Shown: piece by piece, positions 1,990-57,975 of the stretch
Layout of the letters: the number at the start of each line of letters is the position of its first letter
Numbering within the stretch: position 1 is the first letter of the stretch
From: Lepiota brunneoincarnata
Lineage: Eukaryota > Basidiomycota > Agaricomycetes > Agaricales > Agaricaceae
Direction of reading: 5' to 3'
NCBI GenBank assembly: GCA_023014365.1
Contig: JAEBUN010000014.1
Location: forward strand, 372,001 to 436,000
Length of the DNA: 64,000 nt
Notes under the pieces: generated by a model
Told to the model about the DNA's origin: nothing
Databases searched by the model: none
The model's input: the letters and a program-made list of their open reading frames with translations, nothing else
Program-made: the position numbers and the translations under genes

Positions 1990-2712
1990 GCGGTCGTTTA
2001 CCTCTCTGCCTTAACTTGGCGTCTTCCCTCGTTATCTCATTGAGCGCGATCCACTAAGCTCTATAAGGCCAACCGTCTCGGACACCTTGTAGAGTGATTG
2101 AAGGCCGTCTCCAGTTATCCTCGGATACAGAAGGAGCACGGATCATAACAGGATGACAATGGCAATGCCTCTACTGCACGTGCATTCTTGGGTGAGCATA
2201 TGAGTCGCGAAGACAACGCATGTCCAGGTATCTTCGTGAAACCACTACGGCGGTTTATGGACAGAAGGGTGACTTCAGGTAATGCGTTGGTTGTCACGTA
2301 TCACATGACCGTTATGGATCATGGATCATCGATCCAGTCGCGCCCAAATTGAACAGGAATCACGGTCCATTGTACTCTGCTCAATGCACACCAAGTAATC
2401 GTGGGTGCCTTCCATCCGTCAATGTTCAAGCAGCGATGGTCAGGCTTGCGGTTCATAGACAATGCCCGCTGGGGATTCTGCATCCTTAGTGTTAGCAAAC
2501 ATTACACACCGCCCCTCAGCGTTATCAGTGCTGTGCATGGTTACCAATATAGAATATGTCGGGTTCAATGGGAAACTAACCTTACCTTTTTCGTTGAAGA
2601 CGTGCACGCCTTGTGCCACCCCCAGGCTTCCATACACAGCCGGACTCTTCGCTTCGTTGTCTCCCTCTCAAACCTTCACCCCCACCATCATTATCTACAG
2701 TATCGTTCAACA
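1990..2712. other. Intergenic stretch without a recognised gene
   Basis: This stretch lies between the gypsy element and the gene starting near 2713. The short ORFs here have no recognisable motif. It may hold the promoter of the downstream gene, but I saw no convincing TATA box. Confidence 0.5.
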
Positions 2713-5700
2713 ATGGCTACCGACTCAACCCCCTTCCGTTTCTCAAGGGTTTTTGCTATTCGTCGAATTTCACCGAATACTACTGAGAGACCCCCCTCGA
2801 CAATCCGTAAATACTTATCGAAATGGCTGCCCATACCCAAGTCGGACTCCAAGCGCATCACTTCTGGTGCTTGAGAGCCAAGTGCCCCCGACGATTATGA
2901 CTCCCGCGGGTCTCGAGTCCGTGAATATACCACCGTCGCACTCACTACGGTGCTACCTATCACCAAAGCCATCCCAGTTGCGGGGCCTCCCTTGAAAGCA
3001 GCCATCGGCGGCTTGCTAGCAGCCCTCCAAATTATCGACGTGAGTTCTGATAGTTCCCAATTGTCTAGATTGACCAAGAAACTAATCCCAATTTTTAGCG
3101 AATCGATCGGAACAACCGAGATGCCAAGATTCTCGAGACGAGGCTCCGTTGGCTGAACGAACATCTCGCCGCCGTTCCAGGTGTCTCCTCCCAGGAACTC
3201 AATGTCCTTCGCGACGGTTTAACTGCGTACGTCCATAGAGTCTCACCGTTTACATACCTCCTAATAACCCTAGTAAACTGAACGAAACCTTGACAACCCT
3301 GAAGGAGTTGGGGACGAAGCGAAAGGTCCGATACGCAACCATTGCACAGGTGATTCGCCAATGCTCCAAAGAAATCACGTTTTATATGTCGGAGTGTACC
3401 ATAAGGGTTTTTCTGCGAATCCAGATCGAGAATATTATTCTGAAAACACTTGTCTGCCAGCTCGTGAGTAACATGTATATCGCAGCGAATATCGAGGTGT
3501 TTGCCCCTCCGGCACCACGACCCGCAGCTGGTTGGGCAACGGGAATCACCTTGGTGGATGCAACCTGGAAGGAGTGGCCATTGCCTGCATTCCTTGCGGT
3601 GTCGCACGAGGTATGTGTTCAAGGTGTATCAATGGACTCGGGTGGCCTGGTGATTCGCTGACCGGATTGAAACAGGTCTTTTTGGGGGCCATTTCCGCAC
3701 TCATGAAAACGGACAAATTGGAAGTACGTGTGCAGCGGCCATATGTGGAAAGGGGCATGTATGACCTCTGCATCGACGAGGGTGGTAAGGTTGTCCCAAT
3801 TACGGGAGAGAGTGATTGGTCCAGGGTTCAGCCCGGGACAAGGATTGTCATGAGTGCAATTCTTGTGCGGCGACAATTCACTGGCAATAAAAGGTATAAA
3901 TGTCCCTGGTGCAAGGCCTGGAATGATGCTGGTGGCTATGAAGGTGTATCAATTGACTGGTAAGTCCAATTACCTCCTTGGTATTGATTTTAAAACAATA
4001 GATTATGTTTTAGCAAGAAATGTGATGGTTGGTTCCAGATGTCAGAAGCAGATACTGCACCAGGGCAGAGAATAAGCTATCAATCTAATATAGGGGATAC
4101 TCAAGATATAGGCCTATTGCAAAACATCCACCTAAAACAAGTTGTAAGTAGCTGGCCAAATTGAGTAATTGCAATGATTGACATTTTGACTTTGATGAAT
4201 TTTACTCTATTTCTATTTTAGCCAGTAGGTTTTGCATTTTTTGTCAGCTAGACTTGAAACACTGATCTTGTCTGTCTTCATTTTCACATCTCAGGAGGTG
4301 GGTTCTCCAGTTTGTGACCTGTGTTTGAAACACTGACCTTGTCTGTCTTCACTTTCACCTCTCAGTTTGTGGGTTCTCCAGTTTGTGACCTGTGTTTGAA
4401 ACACTGACCGACCTTGTCTGTCTTCACTTTCACCTCTCAGAGAGTGGGTTCTCCAGTTTGTGACCTGTGCTTGAAACACTGACCTTGTCTGTCTTCACTT
4501 TCACCTCTCAGTTTGTGGGTTCTCCAGTTTGTGACCTGTGTTTGAAACACTGACCTTGTCTGTCTTCACTTTCACCTCTCAGAGAGTGGGTTCTCCAGTT
4601 TGTGACCTGTGCTTGAAACACTGACCTTGTCTGTCTTCACTTTCACCTCTCAGGAGGTGGGTTCTCCAGTTTGTGACCTGTGTTTGAAACACTGACCTTG
4701 TCTGTCTTCACTTTCACCTCTCAGCTTGTGGGTTCTCCAGTTTGTGACCTGTGTTTGAAACACTGACCTTGTCTGTCTTCACTTTCACCTCTCAGGAGGT
4801 GGGTTCTCCAGTTTGTGACCTGTGTTTGAAACACTGACCTTGTCTGTCTTCACTTTCACCTCTCAGCTTGTGGGTTCTCCAGTTTGTGACCTGTGCTTGA
4901 AACACTGACCTTGTCTGTCTTCACTTTCACCTTTCAGAGAGTGGGTTCTCCAGTTTGTGACCTGTGTTTGAAACACTGACCTTGTCTGTCTCCACTCTCA
5001 CCCCTCAGGAGGTGGGTTCTCCAATTTGTGTCTTGTGTTTAAAATACTGACCCTGTCTGTCTCCACTCTCACCCCTCAGTTGGTGGGTTCTCCAGTTTGT
5101 GTCTTGTGTTTAAAATACTGACCTTGTCTATCTTCATTCTCACTCCTTAGAGAGTAGGTTCTCCAATTTCATATTCTGCACTTGAAATACTAACCTAGCT
5201 TATATATATCTTTATTTTCTAGAGGGTGGGTGCTTTAGTCTTGTGGGCTATTTTCTAATCACTGGGTTTATATCACCTCTTATTTTTCAGGAGGTCAGTC
5301 CTTCAACTATATGTGAAGCATTGATACATCCATCTTCTACCATCATTTTTAGGATGTTAGTATTTATTGGTCTACTCAATCAACAACTGCTGACCTTTTT
5401 TCATCCCTTTGCCCTGCAGGAAGTTTGTATCCTTATGTTAATGCTATCTAGCTAACCTTTCTAACACCTATTTTTTATTTCTAGAATGTATTTGGTTCTT
5501 TCCCATCACTTTATATGGATGCTTACCTATTTTGTTTTTTATGCCACTCTCCAGAAGGTTTGTATCTTCATTCTGTTTATTGTCTATGGTATTGATCATA
5601 TTTCTGTGGCTTAGGAGGTATCAATACATCTCACCATTACCCCCAAGAGATATTGATTTTCCTTGCCATTTATTCTATAGTTTGTGAGTAATGTTCTTCC

Positions 5701-5837
5701 CTTAACAAATATTTATGTTCACAGGTAATTGGCTCCCCTAGGTTGTGAGTAAACATGCTATTCAAAATACTGTACCTTGTGCTGGTTTTATCTGATGACA
5801 ATTCTTTCTACAGCCTCCCTGGTACTTTGATGACTGA
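2713..5837 (+). CDS. NLR-like helical region, ubiquitin-like domain and zinc ribbon protein with a single-codon-exon tail
   Basis: Exons I can trace: 2713-3039, 3099-3226, 3274-3610, 3676-3959, 4014-4143, then 23 exons of 3 nt, then 5814-5837 (PPWYFDD, stop TGA). The first exons encode a helical region (IPVAGPPLKAAIGGLLAAL) resembling the N-terminal helical domains of basidiomycete NACHT/NLR proteins. Next comes a ubiquitin-like domain of the ULD_2 type (MYDLCIDEGGKVVPIT, then PGTRIVMSAIL). A zinc ribbon follows, with CPWC and CKKC separated by 15 residues and the second pair completed across the intron at 3960-4013. A TGA at 2872-2874 interrupts the first exon in frame; either the start lies further on or the gene is a pseudogene. 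The function is unknown; the architecture suggests a signalling or immune-type adaptor. Confidence 0.6.
4144..5813 (+). other. Train of 24 introns separated by 23 single-codon (3-nt) exons
   Basis: After the phase-0 exon ending at 4143, every intron starts GT and ends AG, and exactly 3 nt separate each AG from the next GT. Micro-exon starts: 4222, 4295, 4366, 4441, 4512, 4583, 4654, 4725, 4796, 4867, 4938, 5009, 5080, 5151, 5223, 5291, 5353, 5420, 5485, 5555, 5615, 5681, 5742. The codons read P, E, F, R, F, R, E, L, E, L for exons 1-10; then R, E, L, R, R, E, D, E, N, K for 11-20; then E, F, V. Intron lengths are 57-78 nt, with ten consecutive ones of exactly 68 nt. Branch-site matches (CTGAC, CTAAC, CTAAT, CTTAC, TTGAC) precede pyrimidine-rich 3' ends in most introns; the weakest (TTGAT) are introns 17, 21 and 22. 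Spliced, the chain stays in phase 0 into the final exon. Splicing has not been tested. Confidence 0.7.
4298..5150 (+). repeat. 71-bp tandem repeat, each unit being one intron plus one codon
   Basis: There are twelve consecutive units, introns 3 to 14 of the train. The period is 71 bp (68-nt intron plus 3-nt exon), except one unit of 75 bp with a 4-bp GACC duplication near 4410. Units are nearly identical from 4298 to about 4940 and diverge towards 5150. The only position that varies systematically is the triplet between CAG and GTGGGT: TTT, AGA, GAG, CTT or TTG. Neighbouring pairs repeat (TTT-AGA twice, GAG-CTT twice), which suggests duplication of two-unit blocks. A typical 68-nt unit contains TGA in all three frames, so retaining it would end translation. 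Confidence 0.9.
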
Positions 5838-6241
5838 GCAATAGTTGGCAACCAGGCAGTGGCAAGATGGACAAGGTAAGTACCAGAGCAGTTTACCAGT
5901 CAGGCTTTGTAGAGCTAATTGAGCAGAACATTCCAAAGGGCAACAGAATTCTTTCAATTTTTTCATGGGAGGTTTTCAGAAATAGGTGGAAATACAACCA
6001 ATAGCACATTTTGTTCTGTAAAGTGAATGGTGTACAGGTGTATATGTAACAGCTTCTCAAAGTCTTCATGCATAAGAGACATATACTATCCAGAGTATAT
6101 GAGAGACTGAGACTAGCATATGTGCGTGAAGCCATCCTCTAGGTCTAGTCAACCACATCAACCATTCGTGTTCATCCTTCGTCATTATCATCATCATTAG
6201 CAACAGCACCATTACAGGTCAACTATAAATCTTTAAACATT
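5838..6241. other. Convergent 3' flanks, no gene recognised
   Basis: This is the stretch between the stop of the micro-exon gene and the stop of the minus-strand DGK1 gene. It probably holds both 3' UTRs. No further domain is visible. Confidence 0.5.
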
Positions 6242-7775
6242 TTACAAGGCATTAGTCATTAACGCAGACCCAATCCACCCCAAAAGTTTAAGAAACCCAA
6301 ATATACACCCTCCCAAAACAATTGGCAGTGTCAGGTTATCATCCAACAACCCAAGATCTAGAAGAAATACAACACCCCATCAACATGAGGCTCCAAGGAC
6401 TAATACAAAACAAACTCACCCATTGCTTCTGCAACACCACTAACCAACCCCGCAACAACACCCAACACACCCAACCCCACCCACCCCTTCACGAATCCAC
6501 CCCCACTCAACCCTACGCCATTGTTACTGCCGGTACTACCTATCTGCACACCCTCATCCCATGCCCAGCTCAACTCATGACCACCTAACCTAATCAGAGC
6601 AACAGTAGACCAGAAGCCAACAGCGATAAGTGTGCCCATGATGCTGGCTGCTACAAACCCCACTAATGACTTGCATGGTGTGAGTGGAATGTGGAGGAAG
6701 GGGAGGCAGAAGGGGAGATGAGGGGAGGAAGGGCCACAGAGACAGCTGATTGTGGATGTGGCTGTGTCAGCCCAGGAGAGGCTGTATTTAGGGAGAGGAG
6801 GGGTGAGTTAGGTATGTTTGAAAAGGAACAAATGTGTACTCACATGAGGATAGTGATGGTCGCAATGTCCCAAGGGTAGAATTAGAAAGCAAAGTTGACA
6901 CCAAGGATGTACCATATCACACCGTTTGTGGAGTTCTATGAGACATGCATGCATGTTAGTTTATTATAATTTATTTTATTTTATGGTTAATGATGGGGGG
7001 AGGGGAGAGCAGGATGGGTGGGGGATGCACAAACACACACCTTTTCACTATTGTGCATAAGAAACCCCATGGCGCACTTGTACAGCCTCTCAAAAGCAGG
7101 CCAGCAGAAATGGAGAATGTCAGCAGGGACAATGATGCATAGAGCCAACCAGAGCACAAGCACAATTTTGGAGACATCACCTTCAGAGATGTAGAGATAC
7201 AGTGTCACAAAGCTCATACATATAACACACATGCCCTCAGTAAACAAAGAAAAAAAAAACCCTAAGTGGGAATTTGGAAGCAAAGGAAAAAACAGACCGA
7301 TAGAGCTGTGTAGCAGTTTTCTTGGGATCTCCCAATCAATTTTTGGTGGTGGAGTGGTGGTGGTGCCATTTACATGACCATTCACAGACTTTAGGATGGT
7401 GGAAGTAGTTGTGTTGTCATGCTCAATGAGGTCCCATTTGACCTTGTGTTTGCCATCACTGACATTGGATGAAGGGGTGTCTGTGTCATCCTCGGGTGTG
7501 ATGAGGTAGAGATTGACCATTTCTATGTGGCCAAAGCCCTCAAGTCTCCTGATGACCTTTTGTGTAATATTATGGACACCGCTCTTGTCTGAGGAAGGGA
7601 GGGGAGTAGGTGAGAAGGTGACAACAGGTGAATGGGAGGGACGGCAACAGCGTGGAGGGATGGACTGGAGATGAGTTAGGGGGCTTGGTGACTTGGTGGT
7701 ATTCAGGGCAGCTGACATTTGAGTGGTTGTGTGCATGCCAGCAGAATGGACAACCACAGCATTGAGGGGATTCAA
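6242..7775 (-). pseudogene. DGK1: CTP-dependent diacylglycerol kinase (Dgk1-like), with a stop
   Basis: Dgk1 is an ER/nuclear-envelope membrane enzyme that phosphorylates diacylglycerol to phosphatidate using CTP. On the minus strand the exons are 7775-7298, 7212-7041, 6935-6844, 6781-6420 and 6357-6242. Family landmarks in order: IPRKLLHSSI joined across the intron to GFVTLYLYISEGD; LCIIVPADILHF; NSTNGVIWYILGVNF; LSWADTATSTI; CKSLVGFVAASIMGT; VVAGLVSGVAEAMD; and LLDDNLTLPIVLGGC. Splice phases agree at every junction. Defects: TAA at 6882-6884 within the conserved VNFxxxFYP stretch, and the usual G-R-L-x-G after the WADT motif reads SCLCG. The N-terminal ~120 residues are low complexity, so the start (7775 or a later ATG) is uncertain. 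Confidence 0.8.
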
Positions 7776-7851
7776 GCAGGGAGAATGAAGAGGAGAAAGT
7801 GCAGGCCGAGCAATGATCTGCCCTTTTTGGATGATATTCTCATGTATCTAA

Positions 7852-8138
7852 TTAATACATGTAGCCAAGTAGCTTTCCTCCAACATTCTTTTGACATGCC
7901 TCTTTGTGGTCCAGGATGCCAGAAGATGTAGTCTAAGTGTATATGGAATGAGTTACCTGTGCATCACCACACGCGAGAAACATGCACCAGGATAATAATG
8001 CCAAAGCCATGTGCAGGAAGCAACAAGTTGACCCAAGACTCAATCTGGGTCACCTGCACATTGAACCACAGTGAGATTACGCCCATTTTGTTTAACTGCC
8101 CATTGAGCTGGATAACAATCTTTCCAGCATGGTGAAAG
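7852..8138 (-). pseudogene. RPS22: Ribosomal protein uS8 (S15a/S22), C-terminal half only
   Basis: Two minus-strand exons (about 8138-7988 and 7932-7852) encode HHAGKIVIQLNGQLNKMGVI, a middle segment, then WVNLLLPAHGFGIIIL. Across a phase-0 intron this joins TTSSGILDHKEACQKN and ends VGGKLLGYMY plus TAA. uS8 is a core 40S subunit protein; its last ~70 residues are recognisable here and the first half is absent upstream. The intron is retained, so this is a DNA-level fragment and not a processed copy. Several otherwise invariant positions differ (for example DDHRAGK reads AFHHAGK), consistent with decay. Confidence 0.75.
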
Positions 8139-9178
8139 GCCAGACAACTTAGAGATTCGATAAAATTAACAGCAGAGTAAAATACACAGGTGACCGGAAA
8201 ACGAACCCTGCTTGTCCAATGCATCCGGGGAACAGGAAGTTCATGTTGGAGGCCCTGGCACACAATTTTAGTGGATTGACATATACCACTACTCCTATCG
8301 ACTAGATCTCAAACTCTTCCTTTCCCTATTAATGGACTCTGCCCAGTCAGTGTCTCATGCATTTCTTTGGCAACCCTCAAGCTTCCTTTAGTCATCCTGT
8401 CATATACCTTACAGAATTTGGTGCAAACAGTCTCGATTACAATCATTGGACACCACAAATTATCTGCTGCAGCATCCAGTTTGATGCTAGCATTTGTAAC
8501 CGGCACGTGCTGTTGTTGTGGCTGGTGTTGAGCTGGCATCTGACATAGATTGTATCATTTTTCAGGATGGTAAGTGGCATTGGGTGGTACTACTTCTCTG
8601 GATATGCTTGGATCACAGGCTTTCACTGGCAGAAATGATCCAACTGACCTCTCAGTGAGGGAACGTAACAGTGGTTCGAAAAACCCTGTTGAAAACTTTC
8701 AGGTTCACCTGCAACATTGCATTTTCTTGCTATGGATCCCTTCCCATTCCTACAAAGATGGCACCTGGTATCATTTTCAACAGCTTGTTTGTGGAAAGAG
8801 TGCCATTGTTTGTATTCCCTATGCAGGTGTGAAAATATTGGAAGTCCTGTGGGGATTGGATGCAGGGACATTGGATCCAGGTCGATGGCTGGTCTTGTGT
8901 GATGAGAAGGAACAGAAAGGGGAAGAAGTTAAGGGCTACCAATGAAAGGGCGCCGTTGGCGGGCAACCTCACTAAAGGGGGAGTGACCAGAGAATGAGCG
9001 GGATGAGAGATAGTATTTGAAGGTCAAGGAAGAATTACCTATTTACATGAGCTTGCCACTATTTATACTACCTACTTGATGAAGTAAGCCAGCCGGCTTA
9101 CAACTGACGTCTACTGACTTTTTCCTATAGCCCAAGAATGTGTCCAGCACAAGGCTTAGCCCTGGTGGAAGGTAGGAA
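8139..9178. other. No recognised gene
   Basis: Short ORFs on both strands have no motif I can place. The uS8 N-terminal half is not found here. The stretch ends at the left terminus of hAT element 1. Confidence 0.45.
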
Positions 9179-10013
9179 TAGGGGTGCTGAAGTTTGGTTC
9201 AGAACTTTGGTTTGAACCTGAACCCCCTGAACTAAACCCAAAGGTTCAGTCCAGTTTGGGTTCAGGTTTAGGCATAGGCCTGTCGACTTGGTTCAAGGTT
9301 CAGCCTTGTGGCCAGCCTACCTGAACGCATTTGAACACATGAGTTGAGGGCCATCGGTGGTGAGGGCTGCAGTGGCAGTGGCAGTGCTTGCCAAACATCA
9401 ACAAAGTTCCAACTTCGTTGATTTTTCACTCACTCTTTCCCCCATGCTATCAACACTGCCAAATCCCACGTGTCCTGTGCTTATCATGTCTGAAGACAAC
9501 TGTACACTAAATCTGGACAGTTCACTCAAGGAGGCCTCCAAGATCAATTGAAATTACTCACTGAGTGCTGAAACAATGCCCTTCCCTCCTGCAAGTGATA
9601 CCCTCAAGCCAACCCATGAATCTCAAGGACTCAAGGGTAAACAGCCAGTATGGCATGTCACTAGTCAACGTCTCCCCAGTCAACACACCTCCAAACCAAC
9701 ATGGAAGGCTCAAGGGGATCCAGACCCAGGTCTGGTCACTCTCACTGCTTTTTTTCCCTCTCAAAAAGGTCTGGCCCCTGTCCTCCATGTTTTAATCAAT
9801 ATCTGATATGTCTTACAGCCGTGAAGCAAGACAACACACCCCTGAAAGAGTCAGTGGAGGCAGTTGGTCCTCCTGAAGAAGATCAGGCAGCCACTTCACA
9901 GGCTTCAAATATTACTGATAATGAAGGTAAGCATACCTACCTCTATCCTATTTCCCATGCTGATGAAATACCTCCATTAATTGCCCACCACCCATATAAC
10001 TCCATATTCACTC

Positions 10014-10445
10014 GAAAATCAATATTATGGCTCCACGTTCACTCGAAAATCAATATCATGGCCTCCTCAACTTGTAAAATGATACCCTGGCTCCACATTG
10101 ACTTGTAAATTGATATCCTGGCCCTTGTTGACTCATAAATTGATGCCCTGGCTCCACGTTGACTTGTCAATTGATACCCTGGCCCTTGTTGACTTGTAAA
10201 TTGATATCTTGGCTCCACGTTGACTTGTAAATTGATACCCTGGCCCTCATTGACTTGTAAATTGATACCCTGGCTCCACATTGACTTGTAAATTGATACT
10301 TTGGCTCCACATTGACTTGTAAATTGATACCCTGGCTCTCATTGACTTGTAAATTGATACTCTGGCTCCATGTTGACTCACAAATTGATACTATGGCTCT
10401 ATGTTGACTCATAATCAATACTATGGCCTCTTTGACTTGTATGGC
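10014..10445 (+). repeat. Minisatellite of ~31-33 bp inside the hAT gene
   Basis: About 13 diverged units are built on TTGACTTGTAAATTGATACC followed by CTGGCTCCAC or CTGGCCCTTG. It lies between two candidate N-terminal exons of the hAT transposase, so it is probably intronic. Confidence 0.8.
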
Positions 10446-14339: not shown

Positions 14340-16206
14340 TGAAATGCGGATTACTTTACGAGATTGAAAACAAAGTTTGTTAACAGGTTCACTAATTCTG
14401 ACTTTATAAGTTTGTGGGGGAGAGGTTGTCACAGATCTCCAGAAATATATTCAATTCTAGTGTTTTTAGGGTTTTGGTACATTATTCTCTTAGTCTCCAA
14501 CTAGACAGACAGTTGTTCTATCTGAATACAATGGGAACTTTGATGGTTATTACTATATAATATGTTAACTAATATCTTCACGATTCGATAAGTCAGGCAA
14601 AACGCAAGCTTTCACAATCAGTGAACCTCTGGAGACCTAGCAGACAACGTGTTCTAACGGGCCCTAGCGTACTACGTCCTTTTCTCTTGACAATACTGTA
14701 AATTTACACTACCCAGCGAGACAGGCTTTTGACAAGCTCCTGCAGTAAGTGTCTTTAAGCTAGTAGGCCTAGTGGACAGCGTTATCCAATGGGCCCTAGT
14801 GCACTACAGCTTCTGAACAAGGCAATAAAACTTTTATACTACTCAGCAAGACAGGCTGCTAGCGAGCTCCTGCAGTAAGTATCTTTAGACTAGATAGACC
14901 TAGTGGACAGCGTTTTCAACGGGCCCTAGTGTACTATGTTTGCTTCTCAATTAAACAGCTCTACAATTCAATGGTATACTTCTGAGGCAAGGCCTCTAAG
15001 AGGAACCCAAAGAAACGGAAGTTAGTGAACTTTCTACTTAAGAACAGAAGAGGTGTAGCAACTTGTATTCAGTTCTTGAGTCAAGCAGAAGGGTCTGTCA
15101 ATATCTCAATCGTTTCACAGGGTCTGGTTTTAAAGAGTATAACTCTTTAAGTCTCTGGTGGTCTTATGACCGAAGAAAATTGCGTAAAATTGCTTTATAT
15201 TCCTATCCTAATCGACCATACAATCAGGGGGGGAAATAGGCAAGCGGTTTTCTTCCCTCCCATGTAATTTACAGACAAGTTTTTATAACAATATACAATT
15301 AACTTATGGGTATACCTGAAACAAGCCTTCAGCTTCATCATTTTATTGTCCCCTCATCATTTAGGAGCATCATTCTAGGAGTTCCGATATCAGCAACATC
15401 AATTTGCTCTCAGGGACTTGCTCCCTAGGTGCCTGGCTATTTATATCACAGCCAGCCAGGTTAGCAAGTTTCCTCACTAATCTTTATCTATTGGTTTTTA
15501 TTTTATTCTCGGACTCTCCACACCTGAGCTTTTCAACCCTAATGTTCTAAAGTCCACTTCCATAGTCTTCAGGTAGTAGACTAACACTAGAATTAATTAC
15601 CTTATTCTATTCTTATCAATCTTCATTTTCTAGTTCATCATTTCTGATCTCTTTTTGTTTCTATGAGGGGGCATCCTTCCCTGAGTACCCTCTGGGATAC
15701 CCCCATTCAATCCCTTAGGTTTCAATATCATCAGAACTGTTTCAAAGGGGACATTCTTGTCAGGGCATTCAGCTAATCCCTACATTCTTTTGTCAAGATT
15801 CACTCCCGGACCTGTTATTATGACTAGGTACCATCCGGATGACATAGGTGTTGCGACTCATCCGCTTTCTAGGGCAGAGGTGAAGAAATGGGTCTTTTTG
15901 TGCAGTCATGAGTATCTTAACTAATATCTTAGTTAACATGGTATCGGATACAATGCTCGGGTACATTCATACCAGAGTCATTCTTCCATAGCCTTGTCAC
16001 CCATAAGTTAGTTAACATCACTTTTACTTGTCTGGGTGTTCTGGTTCTGTTTCTGAGATGTCCACCTTCACATATTTTAGATAGTATTCTAAATCTCTCG
16101 CACCCAGTGTCTGACCATGGCCATATACTGATATTCTTCAGTAATGGAGAGTTAGTTACTTTATTAGCTAGTGATTTCACAAATGAACTGATTTTGCAGC
16201 ACAACA
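14340..16206 (+). mobile_element. 1867-bp LTR-like element, copy 1
   Basis: The ends are TGAAATGC...CAACA. The flanks are GCAC (14336-14339) and GCGC (16207-16210), a 4-bp target duplication with one CpG transition. It matches 29879-31745, also 1867 bp, nearly base for base. Inside are three tandem ~130-bp modules, each with a GGGCCCTAG core (14659, 14791, 14921). I read it as a very long solo LTR. An alternative is a shorter internal LTR (TGTTAACT near 14563 to AGTTAACA near 15941, followed by TGGTATCGGATAC, which resembles an initiator-tRNA primer site) carrying the tail of a copia pol and a leader on either side. Confidence 0.75.
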
Positions 16207-29700: not shown

Positions 29701-32039
29701 CAAATGGTTTGGCTTGACGCCCGGAACTTAAATACCCTGTATGTCATGCGCAAAATGGCCCCCAAACATCTTGGACCATTCTGTATCCTCGACATTTTAT
29801 CCCCTGTTTCATATTGACTCGAACTCCCCAAACGTTGGAAAATCCACCCCATATTCCACACCCAACTCCTCATGCCATTGAAATGCAGATTACTTTACGA
29901 GATTGAAAACGAAGTTCGTTAACAGGTTTGCTAATTCCGACTTTATAAGTTCGTGGGGGAGAGGTTGTCACAGATCTCCAGAAATATATTCAATTCTAGT
30001 GTTTTTAGGGTTTTGGTACATTATTCTCTTAGTCTCCAACTAGACAGACAGTTGTTCTATCTGAATACAATGGGAACTTTTGACAGTCGTTGCTATATAA
30101 TATGTTAACTAATATCTTCACGATTCGATAAGTCAGGCAAAATGCAAGCTTTCGCAATCAGTGAACCTCCATAGACCTAGCAGACAACGTGTTCTAATGG
30201 GCCCTAGCGTACTACGTCCTTTTCTCTTGACAATACTGTAAATTTACACTACCCAGCGAGACAGGCTTTTGACAAGCTCCTGCAGTAAGTGTCTTTAAGC
30301 TAGTAGGCCTAGCGGATGGCGTTATCTAACGGGCCCTAGCGCACTACAGCTTCTGAACAAGGCAATAAAACTTTTATACTACTCAGCGAGACAGGCTTCT
30401 AGTGAGCTCCTGCAGTAAGTATCTTTAAACTAGATAGACCTAGTGGACAGCGTTTTCAACAGGCCCTAGCGTACTATGTTCGCTTCTCAATTAAACAGCT
30501 CTACCATTCAATGGTATACTTCTGAGGCAAGGCCTCTAAGAGGAACCCAAAGAAACGGAAGTTAGTGAACTTTTCTACTTATGAACCGAAGAGGCGTAGC
30601 AACTTGTATTCAGTTCTCGAGTCAAGCAGAAGGGTCTGTCAATATCTCAATCGTTTCACAGGGTCTGGTTTTAAAGAGTATAACTCTTTAAGTCTCTGGT
30701 GGTCTTATGACCGAAGAAAATTGCGTAAAATTGCTTTATATTCCTATCCTAATCGACCATACAATCAGGGGGGGAAATAGGCAAGCGGTTTTCTTCCCTC
30801 CCATGTAATTTACAGACGAGTTTTTATAACAATATACAATTAACTTATGGGTATACCTGAAACAAGCCTTCAGCTTCATCATTTTATTGTCTCCTCATCA
30901 TTTAGGAGCATCATTCTAGGAGTTCCAATATCAGCAACATCAATTTGCTCTCAGGGACTTGCTCCCTAGGTGCCTGGCTATTTATATCACAGCCAGCCGG
31001 GTTAGCGAGTTTCCTCGCTAACATTTATCTATTGGTTTTTATTTTATTCTCGGACTCTCCACACCTGAGCTTTTCAACCCTAATGTTCTAAAGTCCACTT
31101 CCATAGTCTTCAGGTAGTAGACTAACACTAGAATTAATTAGCTTATTCTATTCTTATCAATCTTCATTTTCTAGTTCATCATTTCTGATCTCTTTTTGTT
31201 TCTATGAGGGGGCATCCTTCCCTGAGTACCCTCGGGGATACCCCCATTCGATCCCTTAGGTTTCAATATCATCAGAACCGTTTCAAGGGGACATTCTTGT
31301 CAGGGCATTCAGCTAATCCCTACATTCTTTTGTCAAGATTCACTCCCGGACCTGTTATTATGACTAGGTACCATCCGGATGACATAGGTGTTGCGACTCG
31401 TCCGCTTTCTAGGGCAGAGGCGAAGAAATGGGTCTTTTTGTGCAGTCATAAGTATCTTAACTAATATCTTAGTTAACACGGTATCGGATACAATGCTCGG
31501 GTACATTCATACCAGAGTCATTCTTCCATAGCCTTGTCACCCATAAGTTAGTTAACATCACTTTTACTTGTCTGGGTGTTCTGGTTCTGTTTCTGAGATG
31601 TCCACCTTCACATATTTAGATAGTATTCTAAATCTCTCGCACCCAGTGTCTGACCATGGCCATATACTGATATTATTCAGTAACAGAGAGTTAGTTACTT
31701 TATTAGCTAGTGATTTCACAAATGAAATGATTTTGCGGCGCAACACCGTATACTGAAACCGAAACGTATGGACCCAACTACGTCCGACCTCCACCCCTAA
31801 CAGTTGAAGGCGAACAAGTGTACGAAATTGAAGCCATACTAAACCACCAAAAACAACAAAACCACCTTGAATACCTGGTCAAATGGCTCGGATGGCCTGA
31901 ATCTGAAAATACCTGGGAACCTGAGTCTCACTTTAAATCAGTACCTGATGAAATCAGACCTGAAACTCTGGATGGAAAAGTTATCCCTGAAACAGAAGAT
32001 GAAGGAGATGCAGTAGCATTCCTGATGGAGTATAAGTGA
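26704..32039 (+). pseudogene. Gypsy B pol: protease, RT, RNase H, integrase, chromodomain
   Basis: Protease active site LLDSGAQGNF (about 26905). RT includes SPMASPFFFVNKKDGSLRPC, FSKLDVHAGYNNIR and the catalytic YMDD in IVIYMDDILIFA (about 28070). RNase H includes IKCDASKYATGAVLY. The integrase zinc-binding end (KYHNSPTAGHPG, DFYWPG) is followed by a deletion that removes the first catalytic D, then ISDHNPRFT, TTAYHPEADRATE and FEIIMG. The 1867-bp insertion (29879-31745) splits the conserved LLxPYxETE junction before the chromodomain (VYEIEAILNHQ, YLVKWLGWPESENTWEP). In-frame stops are TGA at 26977, 27436, 28405, 29144, 29380, 29482, 29665 and 29815. At least one frameshift lies between 28950 and 29090. 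Confidence 0.92.
29879..31745 (+). mobile_element. 1867-bp LTR-like element, copy 2, inside gypsy B pol
   Basis: Same ends and length as copy 1 (14340-16206), same orientation. The flanks are CCAT (29875-29878) and CCGT (31746-31749), again a 4-bp duplication differing by one CpG transition. Removing it restores the expected pol junction. It is therefore the youngest layer of the nest. Confidence 0.88.
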
Positions 32040-57311: not shown

Positions 57312-57845
57312 ATGCCTGTCCCCTGCACCTGCAGTTGTGGCTTACAAGTGACATATGCTACAAAACAAAACCATTTGAATGGTCATGGAAAGATGTCACT
57401 CAGAGTGGGTGTCTTAGCAGAGCAAGAGCAGCTGGGGCATGCTTTCTTGCTCCCCAACCCCCAACATCCCTGAATTTCACCTCAGGATCATTGGAGAAGA
57501 GACTCCACAAAGCAGTTGCAATCTAGTTCTGACAAGGATGGCAGCCATAAGTGGACTAAACCAGCTCAACCCAAGGCATACCAACCCCCCAAGATTTCTG
57601 TAACCTTTCAAGCTGATACCAATCTCACAGAATCCCTCCCTACCTGAGAATGCAATGATGACAATAATTCTCTCAAGGCATTGCCATCTGTGCATCGGTC
57701 AGACAGGCTTATGGATAGAACCAGGTGTGTGATGGAGCAGTGATGGGGGAATAGCCACCTGCAAGATGCTGGGCCTGCTGGTAGGAATGGTAATGACAGC
57801 AAAGATGAGGGATCCAGTGGAGGTGCTGCAGAAGCTTCCCAGCCT

Positions 57846-57975
57846 GAAGACTGTGAGAGCAATGGAGACTGTGAGAGCAATGAAGACTGTGAGAGCGACA
57901 AAGCCTACAAGAGCAATGAAGCCTGCAAGAGCAATGAAGCCTGTGAGAGCGATGAAGCCTGTGAGAGCAATGAGA
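57846..57975 (+). repeat. 18-bp in-frame rep (ESNEAC-type) in the Tnp2 gene
   Basis: About seven units of GAGAGCAATGAAGCCTGT and variants encode an acidic Glu-Ser-Asn/Asp-Glu-Ala-Cys repeat in the same frame as ATG 57312. Confidence 0.8.

Follow-up and report, generated by a model that had tools for sequence, protein, structure and literature searches.

The window analysed here, the whole 64,000-nt stretch of Lepiota brunneoincarnata DNA, corresponds to G000:C8:372001-436000 in a genome of 55.6 Mb. Close to its left end lies a predicted gene whose five ordinary main exons (2713-4143) are separated by introns of 47-65 nt and are followed, on the same strand, by a long train of GT..AG intervals. 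The following features were delineated, in coordinates of the window:

2150..8913, forward strand: segment common to the C8 copies of the locus (blastn, 94.6-98.8%), the longest match reaching 8913 in L008 and the right end being limited by the extent of the compared stretches
2713..3039, forward strand: predicted exon 1, with an in-frame TGA at 2872-2874 that is absent from the other three C8 copies
3099..3226, forward strand: predicted exon 2, after intron 3040-3098
3274..3610, forward strand: predicted exon 3, in which the ULD_2 domain begins, after intron 3227-3273
3676..3959, forward strand: predicted exon 4, with the remainder of ULD_2 and the first CxxC, after intron 3611-3675
4014..4143, forward strand: predicted exon 5, with the second zinc-ribbon CxxC and ending in NIHLKQV, after intron 3960-4013
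4144..4294, forward strand: two head introns of 78 and 70 nt with the codon CCA in between
4298..5150, forward strand: homogenised array of 12 near-identical introns, 11 of 68 nt and one of 72, enclosing the hypervariable codons TTT AGA TTT AGA GAG CTT GAG CTT AGA GAG TTG and bordered by GAG before and AGA after
5154..5813, forward strand: diverged tail of 10 introns of 57-69 nt, the first still array-like, with the codons AGG GAG GAT GAA AAT AAG GAG TTT GTT
5814..5837, forward strand: predicted last exon, PPWYFDD and stop

A Pfam scan of the protein predicted from L007, another copy of the gene on C8, returned ULD_2 only (PF22893, E 8.7e-7, 29.5 bits vs a curated cut-off of 24.5); neither a NACHT domain nor ankyrin repeats were found in it. 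The zinc ribbon, with its two CxxC pairs, was recognised by eye. ULD_2 proteins are common in mushroom-type basidiomycetes. A likeness between the N-terminal helices and fungal cell-death domains was entertained, but no result supported it. The sole homologue from three protein searches was P0001 of Agrocybe chaxingu (38% over 87% of the query), two of the searches having scored about 8000 candidates that shared most words, such that distant relatives may escape. Its Pfam scan gave ULD_2 and three weak sub-threshold matches, and its predicted structure has a mean pLDDT of 44.7, too low for a fold search. Similarity to P0001 stops at HLKQ, which is where the train starts in the window gene; the tail of this single homologue from another species does not align, and no train-like tail was found in it. 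P0001 is an automatic prediction, which would presumably miss exons of 3 nt. In a paralogue on C1, too, FHLKQ is followed by an intron in the corresponding position; the 3' exon beyond it is a different one, and a search for a train gave none, the longest chain being 3. The exons after its HLKQ intron (L071 1860-2830) contain repeated ELKQSNQ..W-type stretches, which we take to be heat-shock-factor-like.

A sequence-only reading of the window had described 24 consecutive GT..AG intervals at 4144-5813, spaced by one codon each, and this run was reproduced on the forward strand, with intervals of 57-78 nt and neighbours separated by exactly 3 nt throughout. The 23 triplets between the intervals, when concatenated, read PEFRFRELELRELRREDENKEFV, in which the richness in Glu (7/23) and Arg (5/23) that had been pointed out is borne out; so is the short final exon, which encodes P P W Y F D D and a stop. 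A chance origin of the chain was rejected, as 1000 dinucleotide shuffles of 4144-5813 produced 3-nt-spaced chains of at most 6 intervals as against 24, and the longest such chains in the remainder of the window comprise 4 on the forward and 5 on the minus strand. Chains at other spacings do occur as a by-product of the repeat, with 19 intervals at 7 nt, 11 at 15 nt and 10 at 10 nt in the part that it occupies; they do not exceed 4 within 5226-5813, and elsewhere in the window spacings of 0 and 8 give chains of up to 7. Since the repeat alone yields chains at other spacings, independent evidence has to come from the diverged part: 5226-5813 taken alone holds a 3-nt-spaced chain of 9 vs at most 4 in 1000 shuffles. 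The claim that the spacing is kept independently of the repeat hence holds for these nine introns. It does not extend to the intron at 5154-5222, which is still a recognisable array unit: array similarity runs to 5169, and this intron aligns with array units of the copy on C5.

The splice signals within the intervals had also been remarked upon, and here the outcome was divided. The pyrimidine-rich 3' end is well founded, as evidenced by 127/165 pyrimidine positions in the 11 diverged introns vs a shuffle mean of 108, a value reached by 0/2000 shuffles. A CTNAY motif lies 10-50 nt from the 3' end in 20 of the 24 introns; in the diverged introns, its frequency (8/11 vs a shuffle mean of 5.0, with 126/2000 shuffles reaching 8) is not clearly above that of shuffles. 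A second register, AG-TTT-GT, is found inside 11/24 introns. It was rejected as the true junction because it is absent from all nine introns from 5226 onward, its triplet is constant, and between the putative branch site and its AG there is an earlier AG.

Exon 5 is matched at five places in the genome, four on C8 (G000:C8:177894, 281133, 376014 and 474775) and one on C5. The C8 matches are all in the same orientation and lie at a regular distance of about 95-103 kb, an arrangement of the large-scale duplication type. Similarity among the C8 copies begins at 2150 in L006, L007 and L008 alike; the sequence before it (1-2150) is presumably the 3' end of a Ty3-type retroelement, with a chromodomain-like opening seen by eye. 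The number of train introns is 24 in the window, 35 in L006, 50 in L007 and about 27 in L008 (27 by mechanical chain, with some units broken), giving 23, 34 and 49 predicted 3-nt exons in the first three. In the C5 copy the train is diverged and broken up by a pair of insertions, located at about 4288-5130 and 5386-5797 of the L009 reverse complement; one array unit of this copy has lost its AG, and one junction after an insertion is 1 nt. Inspected by eye, the first insertion seems to carry short inverted ends along with a direct repeat of 6 bp (ACTTCT).

To compare codons with introns, 106 units of the window, L006 and L007 were considered and the 72 with 68-nt introns were used, L008 and C5 being left out. 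The introns of these units differ pairwise by 0.040 per site (4.0%), whereas the triplets between them differ by 0.697 (69.7%), which is near saturation. Entropy amounts to 1.98, 1.76 and 1.53 bits at the three codon positions and to 0.79 at the most variable intron position. As many as 31 introns are identical to the letter, and the triplet that comes next may be TTT, AGA, CTT, GAG or TCG. To connect the six triplet types, at least eight changes must have occurred at three sites, whereas the intron has 21 variable positions among its 68 (Poisson P 6e-6). The same division was seen in C5. Its 17 aligned array introns diverge by 18.5%, indels being present, and have kept GT and AG in 17/17, while the array triplets differ by 60%; 9/70 intron columns there match the least variable codon position in variability. 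In the C8 and C5 arrays, therefore, constant sequence gives way to variable sequence at the predicted splice sites.

Comparison of C8 with C5 allowed 15 introns to be paired, although the partners in three of these pairs, at the edge of the array, may not truly correspond. Across these introns, 111/979 sites are substituted and six indel events have occurred; the spacing is always 3, and none of the 60 splice-dinucleotide positions has changed (binomial P 7e-4). The accompanying codons have changed at 14/45 positions (P 3e-4 against the intron rate). When only the 10 unambiguous tail pairs are taken, codons (4/30) and introns (60/629) change alike. Tail codons are thus not faster than introns, and the signal of diversification rests on the array and its edge. 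As for the residues encoded, 15 of the 18 codon types in the window, L006, L007 and C5 belong to the charged/amide or the aliphatic/aromatic class (by composition, P 0.012-0.016), and no stop is among the 18.

The array also bears marks of turnover. Its junctions measure 3 nt in 13/13 cases in the window, 22/22 in L006, 39/39 in L007 and 12/16 in L008 (Fisher P 7e-4), the odd junctions of the latter being of 1, 2, 2 and 4 nt; sequencing error is possible in the broken L008 array. A four-unit block is repeated in L007, where 14/31 units of 71 nt are identical at lag 4, compared with 2/34, 2/33 and 1/32 at lags 1-3, and this repeat is a block duplication at the level of DNA. The number and order of codons differ strongly among the C8 copies, the other sequence of which is matched at about 95-99%. 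Allowing up to three mismatches, a search with the 26-nt start of the 68-nt intron gave 100 matches, all at five loci on C8 and C5. This confinement speaks against a mobile intron, and a dispersed introner family was rejected on that ground. A search with the tail added one relic of the train on C25, of about 0.26 kb (L079 3364-3620), 72-73% identical and beside unrelated genes; by eye, it has lost one junction and carries a changed AG and a changed GT.

In our interpretation, the triplets are probably genuine one-codon exons carried by a 71-bp minisatellite that supplies one residue per unit. The one-codon-exon reading had been put forward from the window by itself, and it gains support from the spacing and splice dinucleotides that persist in four other copies, one of them diverged, and from the position of the variable/constant boundary. 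Splicing would join the triplets one after another, giving the ULD_2/zinc-ribbon protein a variable C-terminal tail of charged and greasy residues. As an exon of 3 nt is too small for two neighbouring spliceosomes at once, the introns would be recognised individually, with the short introns of 57-78 nt presumably recognised by intron definition and removed in sequence. Every codon being in phase 0, units could be skipped without any frameshift, and a graded series of tail lengths may be possible. At the level of DNA, the intron-plus-codon unit may behave as a minisatellite that gains and loses units by unequal exchange or slippage; the same process would homogenise the introns, and selection on the protein would keep the codons different. 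The observations on which this explanation builds are the chain, its five copies with differing unit numbers, the block duplication of units, the near-identical introns, the near-saturated triplets and the retained splice dinucleotides, and we regard the explanation as a whole (codon-by-codon splicing into a variable tail, minisatellite turnover and selection on codons) with considerable, if not full, confidence. By analogy with the truffle genes discussed below, the function of the tail might be that of a rapidly diversifying recognition surface, which is the least certain step.

The condition of the main exons raises the question of whether the copy in the window is a working one. L007 is open from ATG to stop across its five exons and all 49 codons. 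The window copy has a single in-frame stop, the TGA in exon 1, which is why it may not be a working copy; exon 1 of L008 is frameshifted, L006 contains a stretch that is out of frame and has stops, and internal stops were reported by tblastn in the C5 exons. The main exons are hence disturbed in the window copy and in L006, yet both trains are perfect, which could reflect recent loss, sequencing error or a lack of constraint on the train. Private substitutions of the window copy (2401-4230) fall at CpG in 9/14 cases and are C>T or G>A in 11/14, the pattern expected from methylation decay or a RIP-like process; the corresponding CpG counts are 6/14 in L008, 1/7 in L006 and 0/7 in L007. Together with the stop, this pattern makes it a serious possibility, if one that we place slightly below the opposite view, that the window copy is a dead duplicate whose perfect train is merely recent. 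Such a fate would say nothing about how the train arose, and the train is both perfect and longer in the open copy L007. It is compatible with the one-codon-exon explanation.

The alternative that competes directly with one-codon exons is that the whole train is removed as one long intron, of 1.67 kb in the window and 3.5 kb in L007, or that the transcript ends earlier; the triplets would then be non-coding remnants and the array an intronic minisatellite. The protein would still end in frame under single-intron removal, given that exon 5 and the last exon are both in phase 0, and the disturbance of the main exons in three of the four C8 copies would be in keeping with it. We nevertheless consider it unlikely, in view of the sharp change in variability exactly at the splice sites, the retention of the C5 splice dinucleotides, and the fact that, apart from relics, the spacing is broken in the disturbed L008 array alone; the other introns of the gene, moreover, measure just 47-65 nt. 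More doubtful still is an old contiguous exon into which copies of one intron were inserted, or were overwritten via RNA (reverse splicing and conversion) such that introns alone became homogenised: this would account for different codons beside identical introns without strong selection, but the great variation in codon order and number between copies whose flanks are about 95-99% identical and the repetition of whole intron-plus-codon blocks at lag 4 in L007 point to turnover in blocks of DNA, and the intron is confined to its five loci.

For one-codon exons, there is precedent in fungi. The sequence-only reading had held that no train of this length was described; this must be corrected, since the NACHT-ANK ('nank') genes of Tuber melanosporum are reported to contain tens or dozens of codon-sized 3-bp exons that are alternatively spliced (PMC4986451, PMC3689799, PMC10197012, PMC9815663, all of which cite Iotti et al., 2012, in the passages concerned). 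The wording of these passages ranges from 'multiple' codon-sized exons (PMC4986451) and '3-bp long microexons' (PMC10197012) to 'dozens of 3 bp mini-exons' able to diversify the C-terminal recognition domain (PMC9815663). The kind of train is therefore already known, and its splicing in truffle lends plausibility to the present reading. As far as these passages describe them, the truffle genes resemble ours in having tens of 3-bp exons in series in the C-terminal part of a fungal gene family. They differ in their NACHT and ankyrin domains, neither of which was detected by Pfam in the main exons here, and in their reported alternative splicing, the exons here being predicted from sequence. What is new relative to these passages is the other gene family and the homogenised introns around hypervariable codons.

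Other systems share single aspects of the pattern. Micro-exon genes of Schistosoma likewise have many consecutive, in-frame tiny exons (PMC10526429), although these measure 6-81 bp (3-81 in the abstract) and are separated by introns of 0.1-5 kb, whereas the train exons here are all of 3 nt and the introns of 57-78 nt. In Fusarium CYP621A, a 1-nt exon seen by RNA-seq indicates that fungal splicing can include an exon of less than 4 nt; that exon is isolated and conserved, with neither a train nor variability (PMC12940212). The WD repeats of the fungal NLRs HET-D/E/R are similarly homogenised, change in copy number and have positively selected positions (PMC4986451), but in NLR arrays the repeat itself is coding (WD, ANK, TPR), while 68 of 71 bases are intron in our unit. 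Near-identical introns and tandem intron-exon units are also known from introner-like elements and from intron gain by tandem duplication (PMC4457414, PMC4974935); introner-like elements are found in many unrelated genes, unlike the introns described here, which are not dispersed over genes. Among the open-licence papers searched, we found none on such a train in a ULD_2/zinc-ribbon family or on the combination of homogenised introns with hypervariable codons. A statement in PMC11121469 gives functional microexons as previously undescribed in filamentous fungi, and this is at odds with the truffle reports.

If spliced as predicted, a single gene would contain up to 49 consecutive 3-nt exons, which would put models of exon recognition to a severe test and would present a case of evolution acting on single codons inside otherwise identical introns. 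Gene predictors will miss such one-codon-exon tails. The origin of the train becomes testable, as one genome holds five copies at stages described as intact, disturbed, diverged and relic. The truffle device would be extended to another gene family. As a tentative proposal, which we consider less likely than not, the locus may represent a protein-coding minisatellite, 68 of the 71 bases in each unit being intron, with introns homogenised, codons driven apart and in-frame skipping producing a ladder of tails; a second fungal lineage would then possess this device in a family without NACHT or ankyrin domains, and one-codon cassettes could be a general fungal route to hypervariable recognition surfaces.

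Other tandem repeats were noted in the window. Two 130-bp repeats of nearly the same unit lie 15.5 kb apart at 14703-14936 and 30243-30476, and further tandem arrays, with units of 31 bp and 18 bp, are located at 10000-10441 and 57845-57973, respectively.
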